Of a stretch of 64,000 nucleotides of DNA, positions 19,254 to 22,239 are shown piece after piece. Source of the DNA: Mesorhizobium sp. B4-1-3 (GTDB lineage Bacteria > Pseudomonadota > Alphaproteobacteria > Rhizobiales > Rhizobiaceae); assembly GCF_006439355.1 (NCBI RefSeq), contig NZ_VFTG01000014.1:62001-126000 (forward strand). The letters run 5' to 3'. The notes under the pieces were generated by a model that worked only from the letters and a program-made list of their open reading frames with translations, was not told the DNA's origin and ran no database searches. How positions within the stretch are numbered: position 1 is the stretch's first letter; each line of letters starts with the position of its first letter. The position numbers and the translations under genes are program-made.

Positions 19254-20325
19254 TGTGCCTGGTCTCCGTGCCCTCGATACCGACCGCGAGGCAGCTGCCA
19301 ATGACGAGGACGGCGCCGGCAATTGCTGTCATCGATAGGCTTTCGCCCGAGAGCGTCAGCAGAAACGTGGAAGCGATCGGCGTCAGATAGGCGACGACCG
19401 CTATCCTGCCGCCGTGGTCGAGCTTTGCCGCGCGCGACCAGAAATAGTAGCCGAGCCCCATCGGACCGGCGCCGAGATAGAGGCCGAGCAGAAGGTGCGC
19501 GCCACTCGGGCGCACGATGCCGTCATGCAGACACCAAGCGAAGGTGAGTGCGACGCCGATCAGCGCCGAGGGCAAAAGCAGACGCTCCGGCGACACGGCA
19601 AGGCGGCCGACGGTGAGCGAGTAGAAGGCCATGCAGAGCGCCGAGCCGAAAGCGGCGAGATAGCCGACAAGGCTACCATCGAACCAGCTCTGCGCGCGGC
19701 CGCCGGAAATCACCAGCACCACACCGACGAAGCCAAGCGCCGCAGCCAGCCCGAGCAGCAGCGGACGGCGCGGGCGGCCAAGCAGGATGACCGCCGCGGC
19801 GATCATCAGCGGCCAGGTGTAGGCGACGAGGTTCGCCTCGATAACCGACATCGAGGCGAAGCCGATATATTGCAGCACCATAGTGCCGACCAGGCCCAGG
19901 AAGCCGACGGTGTAGGCGAACGCGGCTTTTCCCTTCTCCCCTTGTGGGAGAAGGTGGATCGGCGCAAAGCGCCGAGACGGATGAGGGGTGCTGGAAGAAA
20001 CTCCAGCGTCGGCTACCCCTCCAGCGCCCCTCATTCGACCGAGCTTCGCTCGGCCACCTTCCCCCACAAAGGGGGAGGGAAAGAGCCGGATCAGCGCGAA
20101 GACCAGGGTCGCGCCGCAAAATTGCAGGAACTGCACTTGCGATACCGGGTAGAGGGCAAGCAGCGTCTTGCCGACCAGGGCGTTGGTCGCCCACAGCGCC
20201 ACGGCACCCAGAGCAAAGGCAAGCGCCGACCCCACGGCGCCGGAACGGCTTTGGCTTTCCGACACGACCGGACCGAGGCTCAGCGACACTGAGGGCGGCT
20301 GACACTCGATCGGATCGTCGGTCAT
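19234..20325 (-). CDS. EamA/DMT-family transporter with in-frame repeat insertion
   Basis: Drug/metabolite-type exporter with two EamA repeats and about ten membrane helices (VGSALAFALGAVALWATNAL, AYTVGFLGLVGTMVLQYIGF, LGLYLGAGPMGLGYYFWSRA). The ATG at 20325 overlaps the stop of the preceding dioxygenase-like gene (TAATG) with GGGAG at 8 bases. Unusual: about 52 residues between helices 2 and 3 (PSPFVGEGGRAKLGRMRGAG ... HLLPQGEKGK) are not DMT sequence but the translation of a rhizobial palindromic repeat (19928-20090) inserted in frame. The protein is therefore 363 instead of about 310 residues. Export of a (hydroxy) amino acid is a guess from neighbours. Confidence 0.85.
   Translation of the reverse strand: MTDDPIECQPPSVSLSLGPVVSESQSRSGAVGSALAFALGAVALWATNALVGKTLLALYPVSQVQFLQFCGATLVFALIRLFPSPFVGEGGRAKLGRMRGAGGVADAGVSSSTPHPSRRFAPIHLLPQGEKGKAAFAYTVGFLGLVGTMVLQYIGFASMSVIEANLVAYTWPLMIAAAVILLGRPRRPLLLGLAAALGFVGVVLVISGGRAQSWFDGSLVGYLAAFGSALCMAFYSLTVGRLAVSPERLLLPSALIGVALTFAWCLHDGIVRPSGAHLLLGLYLGAGPMGLGYYFWSRAAKLDHGGRIAVVAYLTPIASTFLLTLSGESLSMTAIAGAVLVIGSCLAVGIEGTETRHNVQNGR
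19928..20090. repeat. palindromic mosaic repeat inserted in a coding sequence
   Basis: About 160 bp bounded by inverted ends: left CCCTTCTCCCCTTGTGGGAG, right the complement of a CCCTCCCCCTTTGTGGGGGA version. Inner arms read AAGGTGG with CGGATGAGGGGTGCTGG and CCTCATTCGACCGAGC. It lies wholly within the EamA gene without breaking the frame. Similar CTCCCCC-TTGTGGGG cores occur at 14076-14114 and 43430-43640. Confidence 0.75.
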
Positions 20326-21158
20326 TACCAAGACTCCCTCGCCCCGCCAGGAACCGCTTCCGCCGTCGGCTGCGGCACGGGATGCTCATCGGCATGGCGG
20401 CGATAGGCGGGCAGCTGGTTGGTCCAGACATCCTCAGCCAGCTCGTTCACCCAGGCACGGTCATGGTCGTTATCGGCGGCGAGGTAGAACATGCGGTTGT
20501 CATCGACATAGGGTTTGGTCGCCGAACGCTGGTTGAGCACCAGCGTGACGCGTTCGCCGAGCTGGATCGGCGCCGTGCGGTGGAGCACGCCGAGGAACTG
20601 GCCGAGCGTGGCGTAGTTCATCTTGTGGTCAATGCGCATGATCTTGTTGCGCGGCAGGTCGCGGCCGGATTCCAGGATCGAGCGGCCGGTCTCGGAATCG
20701 TCGCAATAGATCTCGAGATGGCCGCCGATGAGCGGATCGCTGATCGACAGCGGAATGAGCTCCGTCACCGGAACGCCGTCGCAATGCCATTCGACCGCGC
20801 CGTCCTTCGGATTCATGAAGGTGACGGTCGAGCCGACGATCGACAGCGGATAGGGCTCAAGCTTGGTTCCCATCATGTCCGACAGTCTTTCCAGGCGCAG
20901 CTTGTCGTGCAAAAGTTCCTTGATCTCCGGAATATAGCGGTCGGCGCCGGTGATGAAGGTGAGGTCGAGATGCTTGTGCACAGCATGGCTGGCCTTCAAT
21001 TTCAGGGCGGCTTCCTCGATGGCGGCAAGCAGAGCGGGGTCGTAACCGTGGCGATACTGGGCGACACCGAACCCCGACACTTTCCAGGAGGTCTCGTGAC
21101 CAATGATGGCCTCGCGGCTCATTGCACAGCGCAGTTCGGGAATTGTATGGGCGTTCAT
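20325..21158 (-). CDS. 2-oxoglutarate/Fe(II) dioxygenase-like protein
   Basis: 277-residue cytoplasmic protein. I recognise no named family, but the residues expected of a jelly-roll Fe(II)/2OG oxygenase are in order: H125-x-D127 (EWHCDGVP), distal H193 (VLHRTAPI) and R203 ten residues later (ERVTLVLNQRS). The spacing of 66 residues between HxD and the distal His is in range. It is divergent from a LysR regulator and its stop overlaps the start of a DMT exporter, suggesting a modify-and-export unit. The substrate is unknown; a free amino acid is an inference from similar operons. Start ATG 21158; ATG 21122 is an alternative. Confidence 0.6.
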   Translation of the reverse strand: MNAHTIPELRCAMSREAIIGHETSWKVSGFGVAQYRHGYDPALLAAIEEAALKLKASHAVHKHLDLTFITGADRYIPEIKELLHDKLRLERLSDMMGTKLEPYPLSIVGSTVTFMNPKDGAVEWHCDGVPVTELIPLSISDPLIGGHLEIYCDDSETGRSILESGRDLPRNKIMRIDHKMNYATLGQFLGVLHRTAPIQLGERVTLVLNQRSATKPYVDDNRMFYLAADNDHDRAWVNELAEDVWTNQLPAYRRHADEHPVPQPTAEAVPGGARESW

Positions 21159-21270: not shown

Positions 21271-22239
21271 GTGCGCCAACTCAGTCAGGTCAACCTCAAC
21301 TCGCTGAAAATCGTGGAGAGCGCCGCGCGGCACAGGAATTTCACGCGCGCCGGCGAGGAGCAGTTCATCACCGCTTCCGCCGTGAGCCAGCGCGTGAAAA
21401 GCCTGGAGGACCAGCTGCGCTTCAAGATCTTCGAGCGCGGCGGCAATGCGGTGTCGCTGACGCCGGAAGGCGAGACCTATGTGGCGCGCGTGCGCGAGGC
21501 GCTGGAGCGCATCGTGGCGGCCAGCATGGAGGCCACCGGGCAATCGCAGGCGCATGTGCTCAGGATCTGCGTGCTGCCGACCTTCGCGGCGCGCTGGCTG
21601 TTTCCACGGCTTTCGGCGTTCCAGCAGCAATGTCCCGAGATCGAGATGCGGGTGTCGACCTCTTACGCCACGCATGAATTCTCGACCTCCGAATACGATC
21701 TCGAAATCCGTTATGGCGACGGCAATTTCCCCGGCCTCATCTCGGAGCTGCTGTTCAAGGAAGACTTGACCCCGGTGTGCAGCCGCAAGCTCTTCCATGA
21801 GGTGCTGGGCGACAAGCCGCTGTCGAAGGTGGTGCCGGAGGACCTGCGCCACTTCACGCTGCTGCACTCCGACACCTGCACGCAGAACTGGCAGTCGTGG
21901 CTGGGCTTCGCCGGCGCGAGCTTCGTGCTGGGCGAGACGAGAAGCGTCTATTTCGATAGCTGCATGATGTCCTACGAAGCGGCCAATGCCGGAATGGGCT
22001 TCGCCGTCGCCAACCGCGCCTATATGGCAAGCGACATCCGCGCCGAAAGGCTGGTGGCTCCCTTCGCGGTCCACCATCCCAACACCGCGGGCTGGTATTT
22101 CGTCAGCCCCATCAAGGCGCTCGGTGCCCGCAAGGTGGAGCTGTTCAAGCAGTGGATCATGGCCGAGGCGGCGCTGACGCAGCGCCAGCTGGACATCGAG
22201 ATCGCCGGCGGACAACAGGGCCGCGCGGCGCTGGCGTGA
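21271..22239 (+). CDS. LysR-family transcriptional regulator (GcvA-like)
   Basis: 322 residues with GTG start. N-terminal winged helix: LNSLKIVESAARHRNFTRAG then ASAVSQRVKSLEDQLRFKIF and GGNAVSLTPEG, followed by the periplasmic-binding-like effector domain with the GcvA-type ending of the first lobe (LRICVLPTFAARWLFPRLSA, FEIRYGDGN-like). A plausible local regulator of the divergent dioxygenase-exporter operon 112 bases away; such regulators generally sense a pathway metabolite. Confidence 0.92.
   Translation: MRQLSQVNLNSLKIVESAARHRNFTRAGEEQFITASAVSQRVKSLEDQLRFKIFERGGNAVSLTPEGETYVARVREALERIVAASMEATGQSQAHVLRICVLPTFAARWLFPRLSAFQQQCPEIEMRVSTSYATHEFSTSEYDLEIRYGDGNFPGLISELLFKEDLTPVCSRKLFHEVLGDKPLSKVVPEDLRHFTLLHSDTCTQNWQSWLGFAGASFVLGETRSVYFDSCMMSYEAANAGMGFAVANRAYMASDIRAERLVAPFAVHHPNTAGWYFVSPIKALGARKVELFKQWIMAEAALTQRQLDIEIAGGQQGRAALA

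Follow-up and report, generated by a model that had tools for sequence, protein, structure and literature searches.

Palindromic repeats that lie in frame inside bacterial proteins are already a known kind of sequence. The closest described case is that of the Rickettsia palindromic elements, which two reports present as long stem-loops of ∼100–150 bp lying in frame inside conserved protein genes (PMC2229807, PMC10969869) and which one of them describes as occupying many unrelated genes (19 reading frames; PMC2229807). The REP/BIME sequences of the GTAG and CGTC families are described as mostly intergenic with some copies inside ORFs, as in recB, where two Xanthomonas species carry a REP at nearly the same point (PMC3733652). 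For the rhizobia, one account lists RIME as dispersed intergenic repeats and names them beside the AB and C palindromes and the Sm-repeats (PMC2573895).

The insert that we analyzed, in an exporter gene within a 64,000-nucleotide stretch of Mesorhizobium DNA (the window), resembles the Rickettsia elements by description: it is a strong stem-loop of 149 bp, it occurs in at least 29 places, and it stands in frame where relatives lack it. It differs from them in that a single gene is hit here, all other examined copies lying outside genes, and in that the insert switches both type and orientation among species at one locus. REPs are much shorter (20–40 bp, against ∼149 bp here), and those of the GTAG family are often found near RAYT transposase genes, whereas this genome gives no match to PF01797. 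RIME and the other rhizobial palindromes are likewise dispersed and intergenic, a likeness by description alone. The intragenic small mobile sequences of the ERIC/RU kind belong to different bacteria (enterobacteria), and we found no account of one such locus across dozens of species.

The debate on whether repeats that enter genes are purged or become lasting protein sequence has, to our knowledge, been argued mostly from Rickettsia. The present comparison suggests that repeat DNA became lasting coding sequence in one clade of Mesorhizobium, a free-living genus in which one insertion is traceable through 42 carrier sequences together with flanks, sister species and empty relatives. In this case selection has long acted on the frame and little on the peptide, inserts have become shorter without loss of frame, and their type and orientation have been exchanged repeatedly. 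The question of repeats as protein sequence thereby becomes directly testable in a bacterium amenable to culture and genetic engineering. New here are two insert types of opposite orientation that alternate between sister species, both of them in frame. Among the openly licensed papers listed by our searches, which included text searches for pieces of the repeat, we found no report of this insert, and no description of a single insertion that was traced across dozens of species and kept its frame while shrinking and repeatedly changing type and orientation.

The exporter gene and its palindromic insert

The host gene (Table 1) starts at an ATG that overlaps the TGA of the upstream gene (ATGA), and its product carries an EamA domain (Pfam PF00892, 8.2e-19; 68.7 bits, above the Pfam cut-off of 28.2). 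A profile of 39 relatives matches PDB 5i20, which we take to be a YddG-type DMT transporter, over most of the length (1.8e-14). The insert coincides with a gapped stretch of this alignment; we interpret that stretch as the helix 2–3 loop, which is presumably cytoplasmic in 5i20. The first-pass annotation of the window had placed the element at this point of the EamA reading frame, and we find it there. The gene belongs to the same protein family as the YddG-type aromatic amino acid exporters, but it differs from them in carrying the insert between helices 2 and 3 and in its score with the NCBIfam YddG model (4e-20, 72.4 bits), which is under the equivalog cut-off of 300 bits. A structure prediction (AlphaFold, 39 close relatives) gives a coil over residues 82–127 in a low-confidence model whose mean pLDDT of 47.7 is too poor to support the loop assignment. 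The closest named orthologues are those of Mesorhizobium sp. B2-4-3 and WSM4313, in a search from which records of the genome itself may be left out. The upstream gene (20325–21158, minus strand; 277 aa) has no match in Pfam or NCBIfam, and a LysR regulator (21271–22239, plus strand) is divergent from it; the 277-aa gene, the exporter and the LysR gene look like a small regulated metabolite-export unit.

The element had been placed at 19928–20090, and both of its ends prove right to within ∼11 bases. It folds at −109 kcal/mol, with z-scores of −9.9 (plus strand) and −9.0 (minus strand), and none of 200 shuffled sequences folds as well. Its outer arms are terminal inverted repeats, a MITE-like trait, and because its two side hairpins differ, its orientation can be recognized. 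Matches to Rfam microRNA families were set aside; they fall under the gathering scores and reflect the long hairpin only. Alignment with orthologues that lack the insert gives the extent of the added stretch as 54 codons, slightly longer than the ∼52 residues first proposed, and agrees with the earlier statement that the frame is open throughout. No target-site duplication was seen at the junctions, the loop being too variable between species to define the exact empty site.

Table 1. Coordinates in the window of the exporter gene, the palindromic element and its parts.
Feature	Position	Strand	Evidence
EamA/DMT-superfamily exporter gene, 363 codons	19234..20325	−	ORF, Pfam PF00892 and PDB 5i20 profile match
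Stretch missing from empty orthologues: 54 in-frame codons, residues 83–136, PSPFVGEGG...LLPQGEKGKAAF	19918..20079	−	Comparison of 102 orthologues, junctions
Palindromic repeat element, 149 bp, type A orientation as read by the gene	19931..20079		Fold, other copies in the genome
Outer inverted arm, left on the plus strand; minus strand encodes LLPQGEKG	19931..19955		Sequence, fold
Side hairpin TCGGCGCAAAGCGCCGA	19959..19975		Fold
Central long stem with variable loop; the loop separates type A from type B inserts	19978..20037		Fold, comparison of inserts
Side hairpin CCGAGCTTCGCTCGG, unlike that of the other side	20039..20053		Fold
Outer inverted arm, right on the plus strand; minus strand encodes PSPFVGEGG	20055..20079		Sequence, fold

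Distribution among orthologues and retention of the frame

An orthologue of the exporter (E≤1e-40) is present in 102 of 146 Mesorhizobium genomes, the other 44 being without one; all 102 loci were fetched and the distance between anchored flanks was measured in each. In 60 of them the loop is 42–78 nt long and bears no trace of the element, while 35 have a long insert (159–237 nt) and 7 have what we called by eye a short remnant (45–69 nt), L048 and L051 being the weakest of these calls. The segment is thus not carried by all orthologues, and the element is not confined to the exporter (see below); neither of the two outcomes that the first-pass annotation had named as telling against its claim is therefore observed. 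By peptide and orientation the long inserts were sorted by eye into 12 of type A (as in the window), 12 of type B and 11 others, mostly variants in the B orientation. The longest insert (L047, 237 nt) has a different composition and similar arms.

The carriers form a single group. A maximum-likelihood tree of the flanks was built from 55 rows, namely all 42 carriers together with L055 and 12 of the remaining 59 empty orthologues. It unites every carrier in a single clade of 43 rows (support 96/94), and a FastTree of all 102 rows agrees with a single carrier clade. The carriers share similar junctions, the left one having two versions with a difference of 9 nt. The remaining member of the clade, L055, shows no trace of the element, so that two changes are needed, the additional one being either a loss or a second insertion. 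Two empty orthologues (L060 and L061) have a tandem duplication in the same loop (IRLMSRAIRLMSRERV and a variant of it); the helix 2–3 loop therefore accepts extra sequence of other origin too.

The reading frame is conserved through the insert. L041 has a run of N in its insert and was set aside, which leaves 41 evaluable carriers and 34 long inserts without N. The length of the insert is divisible by three in 40 of the 41, and 18 distinct in-frame lengths occur, which implies a minimum of 17 frame-preserving changes in length. If indels arose free of frame and the events were independent, the chance of 17 such changes all keeping it would be ∼(1/3)^17; the 17 changes are not necessarily independent, since frame-keeping lengths may have spread by recombination. 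Carriers with a broken frame were not missed by design, because matches to the C-terminal half alone were accepted. The frame of the gene is open in 33 of the 34 long inserts, against 72 of 170 (42%) for the other five frames of the same inserts and 39 of 90 (43%) when all six frames are read in 15 longer copies from other places in this genome. One carrier, L045 (G075:C1:912742-916560), is the exception in each count. It is the only carrier of complete sequence with a frameshift, and it lies on a single-contig chromosome. Its insert is 164 nt long, with a C run one base shorter than in its relatives and a short deletion near the right arm; the frame may truly be broken there, or the assembly may be wrong.

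The rates of substitution add a second measure. Purifying selection acts on the flanks of carriers about as it does on those of empty orthologues: dN/dS for the two sides is 0.17 and 0.19 in carriers (33 sequences), and 0.14 and 0.17 in empty orthologues (a sample of 30 of the 60). Within the insert, dN/dS is 0.58 for type A (11 of the 12 sequences, L033 being left out) and 0.56 for type B (all 12), compared with flanks at 0.14–0.18. Divergence over the three codon positions of the insert is rather even (0.083, 0.110 and 0.167 for A; 0.085, 0.106 and 0.130 for B), unlike the flanks, where the third position shows a strong excess. From the open frame, the lengths and dN/dS together, it follows that selection keeps the frame and acts weakly on the peptide. 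The evidence from the frame suggests that this stretch is coding sequence now, and on evolutionary grounds the insert peptide is probably translated. At the same time, pS is 0.15–0.17 in the insert and ∼0.30 in the flanks, that is, half, which simple descent does not explain.

Two insert types and the history of the insertion

Both insert types are read in frame by the exporter gene, in opposite orientations. When type B is reverse-complemented, its arms resemble those of type A (mean likeness 90.8%, 144 pairs), whereas the central loops of A and reversed B are on average 50% alike, against 88.6% within A and 87.7% within B. On the flank tree the types alternate with at least 8 switches, and opposite types occupy the sister pairs L011/L016 (100/100), L022/L035 (100/99) and L014/L021 (99/95). 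Likeness of the arms does not follow relatedness of the species among type B inserts (rank correlation −0.28, permutation 0.94), follows it weakly among type A (0.38, permutation 0.003) and hardly does so between A and reversed B (0.15, permutation 0.08). In some distant pairs the inserts are much closer to each other than the flanks (L016/L035, inserts 95.9% and flanks 83–86% alike), and in some close pairs the flanks are the closer (L027/L031, inserts 88.9% and flanks 96% alike).

For the type A insert of L022, the inserts of the exporters in G067 (93%) and G084 (95% over 127 nt) are closer than the best copy outside the exporter in seven genomes (88%), which makes type A look like an allele of the exporter locus. 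With the type B insert of L016 as query, non-exporter copies were found at identities of up to 93% (own genome), 94% (G100 and G067) and 97% (G036); in G005, one of the ten genomes searched, the insert has no match at 1e-24. The copy in G036 (L238; G036:C194:165839-165990) is intergenic, in a species whose exporter is empty, and it is nearer to the L016 insert than any non-exporter copy listed from L016's own genome. On these comparisons, the simplest reading of the type exchange is that alleles of the exporter locus have been swapped between species; for type B, conversion from other genomic copies is possible. A further variant is an extra piece of 36 bp within one outer arm (L013, L014, L018–L021, L023, L025 and L030), present in type A and type B alike and at equivalent sides of the element; this piece encodes SEGRGETRGSPPG or, reversed, PGASHGSRPVLRT, and has no stop in either direction.

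We consider it highly probable that a single insertion in the ancestor of one clade was followed by long retention as in-frame coding sequence, with exchange of types by recombination. According to this reading, a normally intergenic palindromic repeat of Mesorhizobium entered the helix 2–3 loop of a YddG-like EamA exporter, most likely once, in the ancestor of that clade of the genus. On arrival the insert would have been open in frame and of a length that could be tolerated, and the loop, which probably faces the cytoplasm, would have had room for ∼50 extra residues; with an open frame and a tolerant loop, we propose, the exporter stayed functional. The stretch would have been part of the coding sequence ever since, frame-breaking changes being removed by selection, amino-acid changes being mostly tolerated and partial deletions occurring in multiples of three. 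Recombination would then have swapped the insert between lineages, so that two types of opposite orientation alternate among sister species. Most likely the peptide has no role beyond being tolerated, as a flexible segment, in a permissive loop. The first-pass annotation had seen here a mobile sequence that seems able to create protein sequence: the in-frame gain of ∼54 residues, with the frame kept in dozens of species, bears this out, but ongoing mobility in the strain does not emerge, and the case is better read as one old inherited insertion. A more far-reaching version, which we regard as doubtful, is that the loop serves as a docking place, where incoming elements pair through their arms in either direction and replace the resident in frame, and that it may be useful for partner binding or for tuning the exporter; if so, repeat DNA is being turned into a protein loop again and again within one genus.

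The main rival would have the insert kept for the structure of its DNA or RNA (a cruciform, a strong hairpin in the mRNA, or an RNase III site through which the exporter message is controlled), with coding as a side condition. The palindrome is indeed intact in carriers: standard pairs fill 725 of 754 base-pair cells in type A and 741 of 755 in type B (96–98%), compared with 45–54% when the cells are slid by 1–2 columns, although these alignments also served to derive the structure and so favour it. The halved pS of the insert is also what constrained DNA would give, but low divergence can stem from recombination as well. Only two pairs per type have changed on both sides, which amounts to little covariation, the 7 species with short remnants lack the full hairpin, and 60 of the 102 orthologues do without any trace of it; we think this explanation unlikely. 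It is scarcely credible that the carriers are inactivated or decaying genes whose open frame is due to chance in GC-rich DNA. One frameshifted carrier (L045) exists and the GC-rich repeat is often open elsewhere, at the rate seen in the 15 other copies, but this reading is already contradicted by the frame counts, the gene's own frame being open so much more often than the other five and the lengths being divisible by three with a single exception, and the flanks are at dN/dS of 0.14–0.19.

The occurrence of both orientations and of several loop families at a single site, intermixed across the tree, could also stem from repeated independent insertions at a hot spot, each species having received its own copy in either orientation. 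The close non-exporter copies of the L016 insert, in its own genome and in G100, G067 and G036, would fit such a history. Against it, the junctions of carriers are alike, the L022 insert is nearer to inserts of other exporters than to its best copy elsewhere, and no other gene was seen to be hit, either at the 28 other places in this genome or at the 53 loci of the genus; on balance we hold it to be improbable. Even less probable, and in our estimate very unlikely, is that each change of type was an in-place inversion between the inverted arms, in the manner of a DNA switch. The resemblance of A to reversed B would follow directly, as would the matching side of the 36-bp piece, and the arms reach 96% likeness in the close pairs L013/L030 and L014/L021. 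A fresh inversion would, however, carry its own loop along, and it is on this ground that inversion is disfavoured: the loops of A and reversed B are 41–62% alike in eight related pairs, within-type loops are ∼88% alike with no positive relation to species distance, and the likeness of A to reversed B hardly follows relatedness. We therefore rejected in-place inversion as a general mechanism, the central loops not following, and keep the reading of one ancestral insertion with later exchange of types.

Copies elsewhere in the genome and genus

In the 6.13-Mb assembly of the genome itself (58 contigs), a DNA search at E≤1e-3, after merging of its rows, places the element at 29 or more distinct sites including the exporter, a minimum given that scoring covered 40 of 60 candidates. 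A gene finder of our own, trained on the codon use of the window, served to judge the sequence around each of the 29 places and around one weaker candidate. A coding signal on both sides in one frame was found only at the exporter copy, and none of the 28 other copies in this genome was judged internal to a gene, in keeping with the earlier statement that such repeats are normally intergenic. Four of the other copies (L002, L004, L123 and L128 = L217) overlap the 5′ end of a predicted gene; it is likelier that the start codon was called too far upstream and that the element lies before the likely start. Not counted as internal were a copy at the last 3 codons of a gene (L210) and one in a 51-codon frame (L211), and two copies near a contig end (L208 and L126 = L218) have one side partly known.

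The picture is the same across the genus. The type B peptide has matches at 1e-14 in 94 of 144 Mesorhizobium genomes; when the best match of each of 30 genomes was fetched, 25 of these loci were intergenic and 5 internal, all 5 being this exporter. Since a long frame might betray internal copies, a further 28 of the more numerous matches in long open frames (≥250 aa) were chosen from those listed; none proved internal, 25 being intergenic and 3 extending over a 5′ gene end (L270, L275 and L276, all in other genomes). Thus none of the 53 examined Mesorhizobium loci outside the exporter (25 and 28) is internal to a gene. The likeness to Rickettsia drawn in the first-pass annotation consequently applies to the outcome, an in-frame palindrome in a protein gene, but not to a habit of invading genes, given 0 of 28 copies here and 0 of 53 in the genus.

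Beyond the genus the element is rarer, with a match at 1e-12 in 11 of 60 other genomes of the family, taken one per genus. PF01797 (RAYT/Y1_Tnp) has no match in this genome, while 5 of 14 control genomes are positive; its absence here is compatible with an element mobilizer in an ancestor, which is possible. The type B insert of L016 has no match at 1e-10 among PLSDB plasmids. The intergenic copies (L223–L225, L228–L269 and L271–L277) often lie 10–20 nt from a predicted gene end, a position consistent with insertion next to terminators or with a function at message ends. In three species a copy (L002, L275 and L276) stands just before the start of the same permease gene, sugar-transporter-like by eye, and some intergenic sites are therefore old and shared too.
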